From assembly GCA_030696505.1 (NCBI GenBank), contig JAUYSD010000118.1, positions 1-32,689 of the forward strand: a stretch of 32,689 bases of DNA, given 5' to 3'. The position numbers were made by a program, and so were the translations under genes. The notes under the pieces are model-generated. The model was given only the letters and a program-made list of their open reading frames with translations, searched no databases and was not told where the DNA came from. Of the stretch, positions 1,817 through 30,694 are shown in pieces (the first letter of the stretch is position 1; each line of letters begins with the position of its first letter). The DNA is from Sulfuritalea sp. (GTDB lineage Bacteria; Pseudomonadota; Gammaproteobacteria; Burkholderiales; Rhodocyclaceae).

Positions 1817-1926
1817 GGATACCGTTCTCGCCCGGAAGGCGGGGACATATCGCGAGGATACCGTCCCGGCCTGGGGGGCCGGAACATATCGCGAGGATAC
1901 CGTCCCGCCCCGGAGGGTCGGGACAT
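1817..1926 (-). repeat. Three tandem 39-nt palindromic repeat units
   Basis: Units start at 1817, 1856 and 1895, with an exact 39-nt period. A 24-nt block is identical at 1845-1868 and 1884-1907. Each unit reads, on the plus strand, GGATACCGT, a variable self-complementary core, then ACATA. The cores differ in sequence but remain paired: GTCCCGCCC/GGGTCGGGAC in the third unit, GTCCCGGCC/GGCCGGAAC in the second, GTTCTCGCC/GGCGGGGAC in the first. Mismatches are mostly G-U compatible. On the minus strand the array stays open as 13-residue units containing GRYPRD. A fourth copy of the motif lies inside lpxH at 25221-25246, in the same orientation. The array ends directly against the rpmE terminator. 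Confidence 0.85.
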
Positions 1927-1954
1927 AAAAAAAGCAGCCCGCAGGCTGCCTTTT
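1927..1954 (-). terminator. Intrinsic terminator of rpmE
   Basis: Read on the minus strand there is a perfect 6-bp GC-rich stem (GGCAGCC side 1944-1949, GGCTGC side 1934-1939) with a four-base loop at 1940-1943. Seven T residues follow (1927-1933). It begins about 30 nt past the rpmE stop codon. It is the cleanest Rho-independent terminator seen in the window. Confidence 0.85.
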
Positions 1955-7328: not shown

Positions 7329-8735
7329 ATGTCAAAAACGCTTTACGAGAAACTTTGGGACAGCCACGTCGTGCATGTCGAAGAGGACGGCACGGCGCTG
7401 CTCTACATCGATCGTCATCTGGTGCATGAAGTCACCAGTCCGCAGGCCTTCGAAGGCCTGAAACTCGCCGGACGCAAGGTCTGGCGCATTTCCTCGATCG
7501 TCGCCACGGCCGACCACAATACGCCGACCTCGCACTGGGAGCGCGGCATCCTCGACCCGATTTCGCGCCAGCAGGTGGAAACCCTCGACGCCAACATCCG
7601 CGAAGTGGGCGCCCTGGCCTATTTCCCGTTCAAGGACCGGCGTCAGGGCATCGTCCATGTCGTCGGCCCGGAAAACGGCGCGACCCTGCCCGGCATGACC
7701 GTGGTCTGCGGCGATTCGCATACCTCGACGCACGGCGCGTTTGCCTGCCTGGCGCACGGCATCGGCACTTCCGAAGTCGAGCATGTGCTGGCGACCCAGT
7801 GCCTGCTGCAGAAGAAGTCGAAGACCATGCTGGTCAGGATCGAAGGCAAAGTTGGCGCTGGCGTTACGGCGAAGGATATCGTCCTGGCCCTGATCGGCCG
7901 CATCGGCACCGCGGGCGGCAATGGCTACGCCATCGAGTTCGGCGGTTCGGCCATCCGCGCGCTGTCGATGGAAGGCCGCATGACGATATGCAACATGGCC
8001 ATCGAGGCCGGCGCCCGGGTCGGCTTCGTGGCGGCCGACGAGACCACCATCGCCTATCTCAAGGGCCGCAATTTTGCGCCCAAGGGCGCGGACTGGGACA
8101 AGGCAGTGGCTTACTGGCGCACGCTGGTCTCCGATGCGGATGCCCGCTTCGATACCGTGATCGACATGGATGCGCGCCAGATCGTGCCGCAGGTGACCTG
8201 GGGCACTTCGCCGGAAATGGTCACCGGGATCGATGGCGTGGTGCCGGCACCCGAGGACTTCAAGGATCCGGTCAAGAGCGAAGGCGTGGCGCGCGCGCTG
8301 CAGTACATGGGTCTCACGCCGCGCATGCGCATCGACCAGATTGCGATCGACAAGGTCTTCATCGGCTCCTGCACCAATTCCCGCATCGAGGACCTGCGCG
8401 CAGCCGCCGCGGTGGCCAGGGGGCGGCGAGTGGCCGCCAATGTCAAGCTGGCGCTGGTGGTGCCGGGCTCCGGCCTGATCAAGGAGCAGGCCGAGGCCGA
8501 GGGACTCGACAAGATATTCATCGCCGCCGGGTTCGAGTGGCGGCAGCCGGGTTGTTCCATGTGTCTGGCGATGAACGACGATCGCCTGAATCCCGGCGAA
8601 CGCTGCGCCTCGACCTCGAACCGCAATTTCGAAGGCCGCCAGGGCGCCGGCGGCCGCACCCACCTGGTCAGCCCGGCGATGGCCGCGGCGGCCGCGATTG
8701 CCGGCCGCTTTGCCGATGTTCGTGAATTGTCTTGA
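7329..8735 (+). CDS. leuC: 3-isopropylmalate dehydratase, large subunit
   Basis: A 468-residue protein. [16 protein letters not shown] is the family N-terminus. The 4Fe-4S ligands are C348 ([12 protein letters not shown]) and C409/C412 (GCSMCLAMN), the positions expected from E. coli LeuC. With LeuD it isomerises 2-isopropylmalate to 3-isopropylmalate in leucine synthesis. An in-frame ATG at 7320 would add three residues (MQI) and has slightly better GGACA spacing, so the start is ambiguous between 7320 and 7329. leuA is not in the window. The next gene, a tiny lipoprotein, starts 11 nt later. Confidence 0.96.
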
Positions 8736-15155: not shown

Positions 15156-15937
15156 GAATCGCGCTCGGACTCGAATACGAGGGCTCCGGATTCTGCGGCT
15201 GGCAGTCGCAGGCGGGCGGGGGGGCGGTGCAGGATGTGGTCGAGGCGGCACTGTCCATTGTTGCCGACAGCCCGACGCGAGTCGTCTGTGCCGGACGCAC
15301 CGACGCCGGAGTCCATGCCCTGGCGCAGGTGGTGCATTTCGATAGCGCAGCCGTGCGTCCGCTTACGGCGTGGGTACGCGGCGTCAATGCCCATCTGCCG
15401 GCCAGCGTTGCCGTGCGCTGGGCGCAGCCGGTAGGCGACGAGTTCCACGCCAGGTTTTCGGCGCGAGGCCGGCGCTACCGCTACCTGCTGCTCAACCGCG
15501 CCGAGCGGCCCGGTCTCATGGCCCGGCGCGTCGGCTGGTTCCATCGTCCGCTGGATGCCGACGCGATGGCGGCGGCGGCGCGTCTGGTGCTCGGCGAACA
15601 CGACTTCTCGGCCTTTCGTGCGGTCGAGTGCCAGGCCAAGTCGCCGGTCAAGATCCTGCGCCGCGCCGATGTCGCACGTCACGGCGACCTGTTGGTCTTC
15701 GACTTCGAGGCCAGCGCCTTCCTCCATCACATGGTGCGCAACCTGGTCGGCGCGCTGGTCTATGTCGGCAAGGGCGCGCATCCGCCGGCGTGGCTGGGCG
15801 AACTGCTGGCCGGGCGCGATCGCGCCCGCGCGGCACCGACTTTCGAAGCCTGCGGCCTGTACTTTGCGGGCGTCGATTATGATCCGGTCTGGCAACTGAG
15901 AGTTGGTGCTGGCGACACGGCGCTGATCCTGCCCTGA
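15152..15937 (+). CDS. truA: tRNA pseudouridine synthase A (positions 38-40)
   Basis: A 261-residue protein from GTG 15152: MRIALGLEYEGSGFCGWQSQ. The catalytic aspartate is D51 in CAGRTDAGVHAL. Later family segments are ARGRRYRYLLLNR and SAFLHHMVRNLVGAL. It isomerises uridines 38-40 in tRNA anticodon arms. An in-frame GTG at 15143 would add three residues, but the GTGA overlap with the preceding stop and the family N-terminus favour 15152. Its place between fimV and the trp genes is a conserved betaproteobacterial context. Confidence 0.95.
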   Translation: MRIALGLEYEGSGFCGWQSQAGGGAVQDVVEAALSIVADSPTRVVCAGRTDAGVHALAQVVHFDSAAVRPLTAWVRGVNAHLPASVAVRWAQPVGDEFHARFSARGRRYRYLLLNRAERPGLMARRVGWFHRPLDADAMAAAARLVLGEHDFSAFRAVECQAKSPVKILRRADVARHGDLLVFDFEASAFLHHMVRNLVGALVYVGKGAHPPAWLGELLAGRDRARAAPTFEACGLYFAGVDYDPVWQLRVGAGDTALILP

Positions 15938-19478: not shown

Positions 19479-20785
19479 TGCCGCAACTGCAGCCCGTTGC
19501 CGGGCTGACGGCATGGCTGGCGCATCTCGAAGCGCTGCATCCGCGCGGCAGCGCCGGCATCGAACTCGGTCTGGAACGGGTCGCCGCGGTCAAGTCGCGG
19601 CTGGGCCAGCGCGAGACCTGTCCGGTGATTCTGGTCGGCGGTACCAACGGCAAGGGATCGACCTGCGCCATGCTGGAGCGCATCCTGCTCGCCGCCGGCT
19701 ACCGCGTCGGCCTGTATAGCTCTCCCCACCTGCTGCACTACAACGAGCGCGTCAGGGTCAATGGCGTCGCGGTCGACGATGCCGGCCTGTGCGCCGCATT
19801 CGCTCGCGTCGAGCAGGCACGCGGCGATGCTGCGCTGACTTATTTCGAGTTCGGCACCCTGGCGGCCTGGGAAGTCTTCGCCGCCGCCGGACTCGATGCG
19901 ATCGTCCTTGAGGTCGGCCTCGGCGGGCGGCTGGATGCCACCAATATCTACCAACCCGCGTGTTCCATCGTCAGCGGCGTCGACCTCGACCACATGGATT
20001 TTCTCGGCGCCGATCGCGAGGCGATCGGACGCGAGAAGGCGGGCATTTTCCGTAGCGGAATTCCGGCCATCTGCGGCGACCCGCAGCCACCCCTGTCCCT
20101 GACCGATCATGCGGCAACGATCGGCGCCCGATTGCAGATACTGGGCCGGGATTTCGGCTACCTGAAACAGGAACAGCAGTGGTTGTACTGGGGCCGCGCG
20201 GCCGGCGATCCAGAGGCGGCCACGCGCCGCGGCGGGCTGGCGTTCCCGGCTTTGCGCGGCGAGCGGCAATTGGGCAACGCGGCTTGTGCGCTGGCCGCGC
20301 TCGACGCCGTGCACCAGGCTTTGCCGGTTGCCATGAAGGACATCCGCCAGGGTCTGGGCACGGTTGAACTGGCAGGGCGTTTCCAGGTTCTGCCGGGCCG
20401 TCCGGCGGTGGTGCTGGATGTCGCCCACAACCCGCAGGCGGCCCGAGTCCTGGCCGCCAACCTCGGTGACATGAGTTTTCACCGCAATACCTGGGCGGTG
20501 TTCGGCATGTTCGCCGACAAGGATATCGACGGCGTCATCGATGCCTTGCGCGACCGGGTCACGCACTGGCTGCCGTGTACCCTCGAAGGCCGCCGTGCCG
20601 CCAGCGCCAACTCTCTGGCCGAACGTTTGCAGAGCCGCGGAATGAAGGTCGCGGGAGTGTTCGCCGCGCCCGCTGCAGCGCTCGCTTTTGCCCAGGAGCA
20701 CGCAGGCGAAGATGATAGAATCCTCGCCTTCGGATCCTTCCTCACTGTTGCTGCGGCCCTGCAAACGCTTGGCCGCCAGAGCTAA
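19478..20785 (+). CDS. folC: Dihydrofolate synthase / folylpolyglutamate synthase
   Basis: A 435-residue Mur-ligase-like protein. It has the P-loop VGGTNGKGSTCAMLE (about 53-67), YSSPHLLHYNERVRVNG, and a late VVLDVAHNPQAAR typical of FolC. It ligates glutamate to dihydropteroate and extends polyglutamate tails in the cytoplasm. Length fits the family (about 420-440). Its ATG shares one base with the accD stop. dedD begins 15 nt after its TAA. Confidence 0.96.
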   Translation: MPQLQPVAGLTAWLAHLEALHPRGSAGIELGLERVAAVKSRLGQRETCPVILVGGTNGKGSTCAMLERILLAAGYRVGLYSSPHLLHYNERVRVNGVAVDDAGLCAAFARVEQARGDAALTYFEFGTLAAWEVFAAAGLDAIVLEVGLGGRLDATNIYQPACSIVSGVDLDHMDFLGADREAIGREKAGIFRSGIPAICGDPQPPLSLTDHAATIGARLQILGRDFGYLKQEQQWLYWGRAAGDPEAATRRGGLAFPALRGERQLGNAACALAALDAVHQALPVAMKDIRQGLGTVELAGRFQVLPGRPAVVLDVAHNPQAARVLAANLGDMSFHRNTWAVFGMFADKDIDGVIDALRDRVTHWLPCTLEGRRAASANSLAERLQSRGMKVAGVFAAPAAALAFAQEHAGEDDRILAFGSFLTVAAALQTLGRQS

Positions 20786-23619: not shown

Positions 23620-24800
23620 GCCTGGCGGACGAAAATCCGCACTGGTCTTTCGAGACGCTGGCCGTGCGCGCCGGGCAGGAGCGCAGCCAGTTCAACGAGC
23701 ACTCGGAGGCGCTCTACCTCACGTCGAGCTTCGTCTTCGACAACGCGGCACAGGCGGCGGCACGTTTTTCCGGCGCGGAGCCGGGCAATGTTTACGCCCG
23801 CTTCACCAATCCCACCGTAAGCACCATGCAAGAACGCCTGGCGGCGCTCGAAGGCGCGGAAGCCTGCGTCGCCACCGCCACCGGCATGGCGGCGATACTT
23901 TCCACCGTGATGGCGCTGATGCAGGCCGGCCAGCATATCGTCGCCTCGCGCAGCATCTTCGGCGCCACGCAGCAATTGTTCGGCAATATCCTGCCGCGTT
24001 TCGGCGTCGACACCAGTTTTGTCGACGGCGGCACGGTCGAGGCGTTTCGTGCCGCGCTGCGGCCGAACACGAAACTGGTATTCGTCGAGACGCCGTCGAA
24101 TCCGCTGACCGAGGTCTTCGACATCGCCGCGCTGGCCGAAGTGGCGCACGCCGGCGGGGCGCTGCTGGTGGTCGACAACTGCTTCTGCACGCCGGCCTTG
24201 CAGCGGCCGCTCGGACTGGGCGCCGACCTGGTGATCCATTCCGCGACCAAGTACCTCGACGGCCAGGGCCGCGTGCTGGGCGGCGCGGTCTGCGGCGCCC
24301 GTGTCCTGACCGAGGAAGTCTTCAAGTTCCTGCGTACCGCGGGGCCGACCCTGTCGCCCTTCAATGCCTGGGTGATCCTCAAGGGGCTGGAAACCCTGTC
24401 GATACGCATGAAGGCTCAGTCGGCGAATGCGCTGGAACTGGCGCAGTGGCTCGAAGCGCAGCCGCAGGTCGCGCGCGTGTATTACCCCGGCCTGGCTTCG
24501 CACCCGCAGCACGCGCTGGCGTTGCGCCAGCAGGCGAGCGGCGGCGCGATCCTGTCCTTCGATGTCAAGGGCGGTCGCGACGCCGCATGGCGCGTGGTGG
24601 ATAACTGCCGCCTGCTGTCGATCACCGCCAATCTGGGCGACACGAAGACCACCATCACGCATCCGGCCTCGACCACCCACGGCCGCATCACGGCCGAGGC
24701 GCGGGCGGCCTCGGGCATCGGCGAAGGCTTGTTGCGGATCGCGGTCGGGCTGGAAAGTCAGGCCGACTTGCGAGCCGACCTGACGCGCGGACTCGGTTAG
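23616..24800 (+). CDS. metZ: O-succinylhomoserine sulfhydrylase
   Basis: A 394-residue Cys/Met-metabolism PLP enzyme. The PLP lysine is K212 in [15 protein letters not shown], the form typical of MetZ. It makes homocysteine directly from O-succinylhomoserine and sulfide. Other family signatures are [20 protein letters not shown] and [19 protein letters not shown]. It shares 4 nt with the purF stop, a pairing common in beta- and gammaproteobacteria. Its TAG overlaps the lpxH stop of the opposite strand by 2 nt, leaving no room for a terminator between the convergent genes. Cystathionine gamma-synthase is the main alternative but fits less well. Confidence 0.93.
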
Positions 24801-25609
24801 CGCGACAAGTCGATCCGGCGCACGCCCGCCGCGTCGATTTCCAGGGCGTCGCCGCGACCGGTATCCCAATCCGACAGCACCCAGCGTTCGGCACTGCCTG
24901 CGGCGAGCTCGATGGTTTCGTGGCCCGGCCGGTGGGTATGGCCGTGGATCAGCCGGGTGCAGCCGTGGCTGGTCAGCACCGCCCGTATTGCCTCGGCGTT
25001 GGCGTCCATGATCGCGGCGGTCTTGCCCTGCATCGCTTCGGCGCTGCGCCGACGCAGGTTTTCCACCTCGGCGCGGCGCTCGGCCAGGGGGCGGGCCAGA
25101 AAGTCCGCCTGCCACTGCGGCGAGCGCACCATGCGGCGAAATTCCTGGTAGGGCAGGTCGTCGGTGCATACGGTATCGCCATGCATCAGCAAGTTCGCCG
25201 TTACCTGCCCGCGTCCGGGTGGATACCGTCCCTCCGGGACATAAAGCGGAGTTCCAGGTACGCAGAGAGAGCCAGCGTCAACTTTCTCGGTTTCTCCCAG
25301 CAGGGTGATGCCGGCCGCGGCGGCAAAGGTCGCGCCGATCAGAAAATCCCGGTTGCCGGCGATGAAGTAGATGCGCGTGCCGCGGTCCGCGAGTTCGCGC
25401 AGCAGACGGCAGACCTGCGCATTGAAGGGATCGGCCAGGTCGTCGTCGCCGATCCAGTACTCGAACAGGTCGCCGAGGATGAACAGCGTTTCGACATGGG
25501 CCGCGGCCGTGTCGGCGAGGAAGACGGCGAAACGCTGCGTCAGGTCGGGGCGTTCCGCCCGCAGATGCAGGTCGGAAACAAAACGGGCGGTTCCTGCAAT
25601 GGTCAGCAT
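24797..25609 (-). CDS. lpxH: UDP-2,3-diacylglucosamine diphosphatase with an in-frame insertion
   Basis: A 270-residue calcineurin-like phosphoesterase. The metal motifs are intact: SDLHL (D13, H15), GDLFEYWIGDDD (D47), GNRD (86-89), LMHGD (H143) and LIHGHTHRPG. It hydrolyses UDP-2,3-diacylglucosamine to lipid X on the inner face of the cytoplasmic membrane, step four of lipid A synthesis. Between TLL (about 102-104) and MHGD there are about 37 residues, against about 15 in E. coli LpxH, so roughly 22 are extra (about 111-135). They include VPEGRYPPGRG, encoded by a palindromic repeat annotated separately. The start at ATG 25609 fits the family; the upstream frame overlaps ppiB. It is last in the minus-strand envelope group. 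Confidence 0.93.
   Translation of the reverse strand: MLTIAGTARFVSDLHLRAERPDLTQRFAVFLADTAAAHVETLFILGDLFEYWIGDDDLADPFNAQVCRLLRELADRGTRIYFIAGNRDFLIGATFAAAAGITLLGETEKVDAGSLCVPGTPLYVPEGRYPPGRGQVTANLLMHGDTVCTDDLPYQEFRRMVRSPQWQADFLARPLAERRAEVENLRRRSAEAMQGKTAAIMDANAEAIRAVLTSHGCTRLIHGHTHRPGHETIELAAGSAERWVLSDWDTGRGDALEIDAAGVRRIDLSR
25202..25260 (-). repeat. Palindromic repeat copy inside lpxH
   Basis: The core at 25221-25246 reads, on the plus strand, GGATACCGTCCC, a TCC loop, then GGGACATAAAG, with stem GTCCC/GGGAC. It shares GGATACCGTCCC and GGGACATAAA with the third unit of the tandem array at 1895-1930, in the same orientation. The surrounding segment is bounded by a 6-bp inverted repeat, TACCTG (25202-25207) and CAGGTA (25255-25260), and has further short stems (CCCG/CGGG at 25208-25219, CTCCG/CGGAG). 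The reading frame stays open through it. The outer boundaries are provisional. Confidence 0.7.
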
Positions 25610-29323: not shown

Positions 29324-30694
29324 ATGCTGAAGATATACAACACCCTGGCCCGCGAAAAGCAGGTCTTCGTCCCGATTCGGCCCGGCCAGGTCGATATGTA
29401 CGTCTGCGGCATGACGGTATATGACTTTTGCCACCTGGGCCATGCCCGCGTAATGGTGGTGTTCGACCTGGTCGCGCGCTGGCTGCGGGCCAGCGGCTAC
29501 GCCCTGAACTACGTGCGCAACATCACCGACATCGACGACAAGATCATCCGTCGCGCGCAGGAAAACGGCGAAACCATACGTCAGTTGACCGACCGCTTCA
29601 TCGCCGCAATGAACGAGGATGCGACGGCGCTGGGTGTATTGCGGCCCGACGCCGAGCCGCGCGCCACCGACTATGTGGCGCAGATGCTGGACATGATCGG
29701 TACGCTGGAAGCCAATGGCTATGCCTATGTCGCCGAGAGCCATGACGTCTGCTACTCGGTGCGCAAGTTCGACGGCTACGGCAAGCTGTCCGGCAAGTCG
29801 CTGGAGGATCTGCGCGCCGGCGAGCGTGTCGATGTCATGGCCGGCAAGCAGGACCCGCTCGACTTCGTGCTGTGGAAGCACGCCAGGGATGACGAGCCGG
29901 CCGAAGTGAAATGGTCTTCGCCCTGGGGCCCGGGACGTCCCGGCTGGCATATCGAGTGCTCGGCCATGGGTTCGGAACTGCTCGGCCGGCACTTCGACAT
30001 CCACGGCGGCGGCCAGGACCTGCAGTTCCCCCATCACGAAAACGAGATTGCTCAGTCGGAAGGCGCGCACCACTGCCAGTTCGTCAATTACTGGATGCAC
30101 AACGGCTTCGTTCGCGTCGATGACGAGAAGATGTCGAAATCGCTGGGCAACTTCTTCACCATCCGCGAGGTACTGAAAAAATTCGATCCGGAAGTGGTGC
30201 GCTTCTTCATCCTGCGCGCCCACTATCGCAGCCCGCTGAATTATTCCGACGTTCATCTCGACGACGCGCGACACGCGCTGACGCGGCTTTACACCGCGCT
30301 CAAGGGCGTCGCCGGCGAGGTCGCGGTGGACTGGAACGAGCCGCATGCCCAGCGCTTCAAGGCGGCGCTGGACGACGATTTCGGCACGCCGGAAGCCATG
30401 GCCGTGCTGTTCGACCTGGCCACCCTGGTGAATCGCGGCGATGCCGCCCTGGCCGGCCAGCTCAAGGCCCTGGGCGGCGTGCTGGGCTTGCTGCAGCGCG
30501 ATGCGCAAGGCTTCCTCCAGGCCGCACCCGAAGGCGGCCTGAGCAACGCGGAAATCGAAGCAAGAGTTGCCGCTCGCGGCACGGCGAAGAAGGCCAGGAA
30601 TTTTGCCGAGTCCGACCGCATCCGCGACGAACTCAAGGCTGCCGGCATCGTCCTCGAAGATGGACCGCAGGGGACCACCTGGCGCCGGGCCTGA
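29324..30694 (+). CDS. cysS: Cysteinyl-tRNA synthetase
   Basis: A 456-residue class I synthetase, near the E. coli length of 461. The HIGH motif is HLGH at 37-40, KMSKS is at 269-273, and the zinc site starts with C28 ([10 protein letters not shown]) and includes the Cys of [10 protein letters not shown] and [10 protein letters not shown]. It charges tRNA-Cys in the cytoplasm. The Shine-Dalgarno is weak; the start [12 protein letters not shown] is standard for the family. It is divergent from the TPR gene, with 254 nt between. A 256-nt stretch to the histidine kinase follows. Confidence 0.97.

Follow-up and report, generated by a model that had tools for sequence, protein, structure and literature searches.

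Nested palindromic elements within a genus-wide sequence motif in the lpxH gene of a Sulfuritalea genome

The extra segment in the lpxH gene of a Sulfuritalea draft genome consists of two nested palindromic elements, a unit termed B inside a core termed C, both lying within an older motif, A′. We consider it probable, at roughly 0.75, that C and B are REP/MITE-like palindromes that were moved in trans and stacked in A′, and that A′ itself is a signature kept by a reader. The window, by which we mean the whole stretch of DNA analysed (32,689 nt), is contig C77 of the draft genome (G000; 4.45 Mb, 398 contigs, 90% complete, 4% contamination). The comparison set comprised 31 Sulfuritalea genomes, namely the source genome and G001–G030, of which G002 is a one-contig genome. 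Genes were called from open frames and Pfam matches; at Rfam gathering scores, zero families were found within the window.

The gene and its additional stretch are located as follows.

24797 to 25609, minus strand: lpxH, UDP-2,3-diacylglucosamine diphosphatase, 270 aa, with 22 extra residues within residues 112–139 (NCBIfam, alignment to 5b49, homologues)
25202 to 25270, minus strand: inserted stretch, 69 nt against 3 nt in relatives, a net gain of 66 nt or 22 codons (comparison with relatives' loci)

LpxH is identified by NF003743 (260 bits, cut-off 134) and TIGR01854 (230 bits, cut-off 190), and its closest counterparts among named records come from Sulfuritalea and other Rhodocyclales. The best NCBIfam stretches cover residues 139–267 and 9–111, leaving residues 112–138 uncovered between them, and alignment to the solved LpxH 5b49 places query residues 112–139 (28 residues) opposite six, a surplus of 22. 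These residues precede the MHGD motif. A preliminary description of this DNA had estimated about 22 extra residues at this place, which agrees with the surplus over 5b49; the edges it gave, 25202–25276, are refined here to 25202–25270, with 69 nt replacing 3. Relatives do not share the segment, which is absent from 26 of the 28 Sulfuritalea lpxH loci read (G009, G026 and G029 fall outside that count). C is found in two of these 28 loci, with B in the source genome and without B in G003; the G003 sequence, carrying the partial segment (C alone), also occurs in a named Sulfuritalea record (L125). The allele with both C and B comes from a single assembly among those searched.

The lpxH frame is open across the insert, and the flanks are 94% and 96% identical to G001. 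Asp13, His15, Asp47, Asn86, His143, His222 and His224, which we take to be the metal-site residues of LpxH, are invariant among 30 aligned homologues, in line with the earlier statement that the catalytic motifs are kept. An AlphaFold2 model built from 30 sequences has a mean pLDDT of 84.8, with residues 115–135 below 50 and located between strands 107–112 and 139–142. In this model the insert forms a loose loop that links the two strands, which would explain how LpxH could tolerate it. The LpxH of UBA6160, another member of the Rhodocyclaceae (L142:2001-2789), has an A′-like stretch and, at the corresponding position, a different insert of ~16 residues, which would make the site a possible insertion hotspot beyond Sulfuritalea.

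The insert is built from the following parts, one of which recurs as an array elsewhere in the window.

25202 to 25213, plus strand: left part of core C, including stem arm TACCTG at 25202–25207 (BLAST copies, alignment)
25214 to 25243, plus strand: B unit, 30 nt, in the loop of C (exactly this stretch is missing from other C copies)
25244 to 25270, plus strand: right part of core C, including arm CAGGTA at 25255–25260 and tail CGCAGAGAGA at 25261–25270 (BLAST copies, alignment)
1817 to 1927, plus strand: tandem array of three B units with a 39-nt period, in the gap 3′ of a minus-strand ribosomal protein gene, presumably L31-like

When positions 25190–25290 were compared with their own genome by BLAST, query positions 6–24 abutted position 55 onward in contigs C290, C175 and C339, so that B (25214–25243) is absent there. 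Core C adds a net 36 nt and B a further 30 nt; both are multiples of three, hence the gene stays open. The insert had previously been described as one palindromic repeat. Its in-frame position and its dispersal stand, but the GGATACCGT hairpin then singled out makes up only the inner 30 nt, nested in C. Similarly, the TACCTG/CAGGTA inverted repeat is present at 25202–25207 and 25255–25260 and bounds 59 nt, as had been claimed, but its arms belong to C and not to the GGATACCGT hairpin.

The hairpin, searched for as GATACCGT-N(5,30)-ACATA, is found at 25222–25243 in lpxH and three times within 1818–1927, against 0 in 100 dinucleotide shuffles of the window. The earlier suggestion that the lpxH hairpin is of the kind arrayed at 1817–1926 is thereby confirmed, GATACCGT-N-ACATA being present at both places. 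The B unit starts with TCC and finishes with ACATA, after which TCCC follows in several tandem B copies and TCGCGA in the window array. The C stem is made of a 6-bp and a 4-bp segment, separated by unpaired bases and closed by a 3-nt loop; the 30-nt class of B has a 9-bp stem starting GT and a 3-nt loop. Elsewhere the C stem reads TGCCTG/CAGGCA, TGCCGG/CCGGCA or TGCATG/CATGCA, compared with TACCTG/CAGGTA in lpxH. Across 23 distinct C cores, 97.4% of cells are paired with five two-sided pair changes, and across 22 hand-picked 30-nt B units the values are 94.4% and seven; 0 of 500 shuffles reached the score in either case. Folding of the lpxH copy alone was no better than that of shuffles (z −0.60 and −0.45); the case for the hairpins rests on covariation among copies. 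By eye, one locus (L084, in G000:C117) shows the reverse nesting, C within a B unit, and another (L041, in G000:C142) an inverted C within C, inside an open nuclease-like frame.

Both elements are spread through the genus. This draft genome holds 32 copies of B, so the motif does have other copies in its genome, compared with one match to the reversed control pattern, and all 31 Sulfuritalea genomes carry it (5–50 matches each; reversed control 0–3). Seventy genomes from outside the genus gave 0–4 matches, about equal to the reversed control. An unbroken stem of at least 6 bp at the hairpin foot occurs in 0 of the 31 outside-genus matches listed and in 20 of 32 in this genome, a comparison in which the B pattern itself fixes two pairs of that stem. 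The B-in-C composite, with two constant junctions, was found in 29 copies in 12 of the 31 Sulfuritalea genomes (reversed control 3). In 22 of these 29 composites the length of B, 30 or 33 nt, is a multiple of three, and in the other seven it is not. Recurrence with identical junctions suggests that the composite also spreads as a unit.

Nineteen reading frames through C copies, chosen from 31 loci of this genome, were scanned with Pfam. A Pfam family was matched by 16 of them, the three without a match being L062, L077 and L033. The matches span the insert or flank it on both sides in 12 of the 16 frames, including L072, which is perhaps a false join; in L070, L074, L068 and L079 the insert is located at an end of the Pfam match. 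The families (Pfam) are as follows.

Indole-3-glycerol phosphate synthase (L069, L072), ribosomal RNA adenine dimethylase, P-type metal ATPase
Biotin protein ligase, MurD, UvrD-type helicase, DnaX, histidine kinase, carboxyl transferase
PlsX-type fatty acid synthesis protein, glycosyltransferase, M1 peptidase, thioesterase
Radical SAM with FeMo-cofactor domain (NifB-like), PD-(D/E)XK nuclease

C is found in frame within birA, trpC, murD, uvrD and dnaX, short names that we read from the Pfam families; the expectation that relatives would lack the lpxH segment and that other genes would carry copies in frame was thus borne out on both counts. The encoded peptide is mostly of the KVGAGSLCVPGIPLRGQVTA or AVTCPRSGIPGTQSEPAPT type, which are different frames of one DNA. 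Two distinct trpC pieces carry C (L072, G000:C78:1274-1331; L069, G000:C91:225-282). On C78, a cytidine-deaminase-type (ribD-like) N-terminus is continued in frame, by way of C, by trpC; this would be a false join at the repeat or else a genuine rearrangement, and given this joint, false joins at these repeats may exist.

Beneath C lies A′, whose halves flank the lpxH insert.

25271 to 25283, minus strand: left half of A′ at lpxH, AGTTGACGCTGGC, 1 mismatch (relatives' loci)
25196 to 25201, minus strand: right half of A′ at lpxH, ACGGCG (relatives' loci)

At the same site relatives read, for example, AAAGTCGGCGCTGGCGGTACGGCGA, coding for KVGAGGTAT. Among 30 C copies examined, 21 sit between A′ halves (at most two mismatches in all), a share biased upward by the 64-nt hand-typed query, which included the A′ arms. 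The net gain for C in A′ is 36 nt in 20 copies and 66 nt (36 plus 30) in lpxH, and C is oriented one way relative to A′ in 17 copies and the other way in four. The preliminary description missed this genus-wide motif, which is itself most likely no insertion, and was incomplete in that regard; its interpretation as a whole is partly supported.

Landing of C in A′ predicts that A′ is present at unoccupied sites, a prediction examined at birA. Among 30 Sulfuritalea birA loci, three contain C (source genome, G007 and G028) and 21 have no insert. Four have only a 21-nt hairpin-like element (G024, G009, G030 and G018), which G028 carries together with C, and two have other inserts (G015 and G019). 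A′ (at most three mismatches) is present in 18 of the 21 insert-free loci, and G025, G021 and G016 show 7–9 mismatches; in the nearest relatives, G001 and G027, birA is empty and A′ is exact. The 21-nt birA element (L345, L351, L357, L364 and L370) reads like TCCC-N3-GGGA with a tail like CGCAGAGCGCT, lies in the left half of A′, and has a tail resembling that of C. On a tree of lpxH and birA (27 genomes, midpoint-rooted, deep nodes weak), the source genome forms a group with G001 and G027 (support 1.0), to which G003, G007 and G028 do not belong. Since its closest neighbours on this tree are empty, C appears, judging the tree by eye, to have entered independently at least twice in lpxH (source genome and G003) and at least three times in birA (source genome, G007 and G028).

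Exact copies of the 22-nt A′ pattern, AGTYGGCGCTGGCGNNACGGCG, number 247 in this genome (115 and 132 by strand) and 302 in the one-contig genome G002 (148 and 154), with 0 matches to the reversed control in both. All 31 Sulfuritalea genomes contain it, in 1–302 exact copies, again with a reversed control of 0 in each. Outside the genus, G037, from another genus of the same family, has 131 copies, and among the remaining 69 genomes 13 have 1–7 copies and 56 have zero. A 400-kb sample of G002 holds 79 A′ sites at up to three mismatches, compared with two in the reversed sequence, and the distribution of A′ matches in G002 is two-peaked. Judged by third-position GC in the G002 sample, the coding frame is clear for 34 of 74 copies, 19 of them in the KVGAGxTA frame, and ambiguous for 40. 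The profile of 74 copies ruled out a palindrome. A replication-polar word was also rejected, the strands being used about equally and twenty 20-kb stretches of G002 being without a plain strand pattern by eye. Exact copies are few in G016 (1), G021 (26) and G025 (38), where loss of a putative A′ reader is possible. That these few-copy genomes represent the ancestral state was dropped, as they are not first-branching on the lpxH and birA tree, although the midpoint rooting and weak deep nodes of that tree temper this point.

Copies of A′ elsewhere in the window lie in or near four further genes.

7850 to 7871, plus strand: exact copy, AGTT form, inside leuC, coding for 11 residues (pattern search)
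15901 to 15922, plus strand: copy with 1 mismatch, close to the 3′ end of truA (pattern search, orthologues)
20591 to 20612, minus strand: exact copy inside folC, antisense to the gene (pattern search, orthologues)
30565 to 30586, plus strand: copy with 2 mismatches, inside cysS (pattern search, orthologues)

The motif has dialects. The AGTT form, with T as its fourth base, accounts for 216 of 247 exact copies in this genome, 192 of 215 in G001 and 224 of 248 in G027; the other 28 Sulfuritalea genomes have 0–3 copies of it and read AGTC. Orthologous sites in truA, folC, lpxH and cysS follow the same division, with AGTT in the source genome, G001 and G027 and AGTC in most others. A lineage that switches one base at some 200 sites must have done so for a shared reason, for example a reader whose preference changed.

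Orthologues were aligned across the region syntenic with the window, from this genome and up to 18 others. In folC, A′ (at most three mismatches) is present in 14 of 16 orthologues and length is equal in all 16; in cysS it is present in 11 of 18, all equal in length. In lpxH it is present in 17 of the 19 aligned (17 of the 18 other genomes), and all but this genome are equal in length. Three birA orthologues without A′ are as long as those with it, and the solved LpxH, which is without A′, has equal length at the site once the 22 residues are left out. These equal lengths with and without A′ argue against insertion, and most likely A′ was written into existing sequence. The pattern in truA is less regular: A′ is present in 10 of 16 orthologues and slightly further on in two more, and the length of the 3′ end varies in lineages without A′.

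Taken together, the lpxH insert would be a stack of two small REP/MITE-like palindromes: C occupies a fixed point of A′, a motif present at this site in 17 of the 18 other genomes aligned, and B occupies the loop of C, adding 30 nt and keeping the frame. An enzyme acting in trans and handling hairpin DNA would move C and B, using A′ as its preferred target; selection would then retain in-frame, tolerated copies, and the B-in-C composite would spread as one unit as well. Because A′ is present or absent without altering length and changes coordinately as dialects, we infer a sequence-specific reader that would maintain the signature, the best known model of such maintenance being a DNA-uptake signal. 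By analogy with such signals, A′ might be a new DNA-uptake-type signature, a bipartite 22-nt word retained at hundreds of sites, many of them coding, with a dialect switch from AGTC to AGTT in one Sulfuritalea clade, serving also as a landing pad for palindromes that stack in essential genes, a tentative proposal to which we give less than even odds. An uptake-type signature would be the first in Rhodocyclales, as far as the literature searched allows.

Y1/RAYT transposases, found in 26 of the 31 Sulfuritalea genomes, were considered as movers of B and C and rejected for lack of linkage: none of 30 RAYT/Y1 loci examined (about 1.7–3.4 kb each; 45 matches listed) contains B or a C core. No mobilising gene was found in linkage with B or C, and neither excision, target duplication nor movement of them was seen. 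Another repeat, GGTCAGAGTC, is carried by nine of the 30 RAYT/Y1 loci. The sole RAYT/Y1 gene found in the source genome (G000:C375, L031:1013-1852) is split over two frames beside a short tandem duplication; GGTCAGAGTC lies just upstream of its start and in 8 of 29 other Sulfuritalea RAYT loci.

The same geometry can also be ascribed to recombination or gene conversion, with composites spreading between A′ sites and the A′ halves serving as homology arms. Hundreds of A′ sites are available, the net gain of 36 nt is constant, each subfamily keeps one orientation relative to A′ (17 and 4 copies), and B-in-C repeats with one junction pair. Homologous recombination, however, generally needs longer arms than the roughly 13 and 6 nt available here, and 9 of the 30 C copies examined failed the A′ arm test; at birA, the arms are identical to those of the empty sisters, with no sign of replacement. 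We hold this route to be unlikely, though it deserves serious consideration. Entry of a single palindromic element into lpxH in one step is a distinctly unlikely course. The B-in-C unit does occur in 12 of 31 genomes, so the last step may be one event, but C is without B in the lpxH of G003, in birA and at many loci of this genome, while B stands alone and in tandem elsewhere, marking C and B as two families. As a description of the insert, the single element is refuted by C without B and B without C.

A′ could itself be mobile, a kind of small dispersed repeat that entered genes by insertion, as its two-peaked matches in G002 and the restriction of its copy number to the genus would allow. 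Orthologues with and without A′ are, however, equally long in folC, cysS, lpxH and birA, truA not being clean, and we find this explanation improbable. Misjoining of repeats in a draft assembly is a further alternative, given a fragmented genome with 4% contamination and a ribD-like/trpC joint on C78 that resembles a false join. Yet lpxH stays open across its insert, the two sides being 94% and 96% identical to G001, and 12 genomes, including a one-contig genome, share identical B-in-C junctions; an artefact is highly improbable.

Single traits of this arrangement, in-frame and nested REP-like inserts, have precedents in the sources cited here. Rickettsia palindromic elements (RPEs) are described as palindromes of ~150 bp that entered unrelated genes without breaking the frame and that the proteins tolerate (PMC10969869). 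C likewise lies in frame in unrelated protein-coding genes. The present elements differ in their size (36 and 30 nt), in being nested, in having a preferred 22-nt target motif and in their host, a betaproteobacterium outside Rickettsiales. RPE families each have a conserved peptide, whereas C uses more than one frame. The comparison with Rickettsia made in the preliminary description is too narrow alone, for REP-like palindromes have been reported within genes of several species, many of them genes of replication and repair (PMC3733652). According to the same source, CGTC-tagged REPs are without a linked transposase, some REP families are inserted in other palindromes, and in T. roseum the target of GTAG-23 has hundreds of copies (PMC3733652). 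C and B resemble the CGTC REPs outlined there as short hairpins, some inside genes, without a linked transposase, but their stems and loops fall outside the CGTC and GTAG families described in that source. There, a CGTC REP has an 8–9-bp stem with AT first, a 4–5-nt loop and a CCA tail, matched by neither C nor B. Most C copies have CGTTACC or CGTTGCC, and L068 and L070 have CGTCACC, compared with a terminal CGTC, TGTC or CCTC tag next to the stem in CGTC REPs; the target A′ differs from REP targets in being non-palindromic and in register inside coding sequence. REPIN/RAYT systems are short palindromes in hundreds of copies that are thought to move in trans (PMC3116915). Here, by contrast with that description, 0 of 30 RAYT loci carry B or a C core, and GTAG, the tag at the hairpin foot of such repeats, occurs in none of the aligned cores of C (23) or units of B (22).

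Neisseriaceae DNA uptake sequences arise length-neutrally and have 12 fixed positions (A′: 20 fixed in 22 nt). They are the known case of dialects (PMC3630211). A′ resembles the sequences so described in occurring in many copies, on both strands and inside genes, with lineage-specific single-base dialects, and differs in numbering hundreds of copies, against thousands for those sequences. Small dispersed repeats of Nostoc are very small and inserted in one another; their likeness to C and B is by description only. Such repeats are named in passing in PMC3116915. Literature searches found none on Sulfuritalea repetitive extragenic palindromic elements, none on an uptake sequence and natural transformation in Rhodocyclales, no Sulfuritalea among the matches listed for palindromic repeats in genomes and, within a limited search, nothing on A′.

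Living relatives preserve a nearly complete series from the motif only, through the motif with C, to the motif with C and B, in lpxH and partly in birA. This series would illustrate a route by which mobile DNA lengthens a protein, and it extends the record of palindromes inside essential genes beyond the intracellular Rickettsiae. To our knowledge, uptake-type words are otherwise known from Neisseriaceae and Pasteurellaceae. If A′ is a signature with a reader, such words and their dialects would exist in a further bacterial family.
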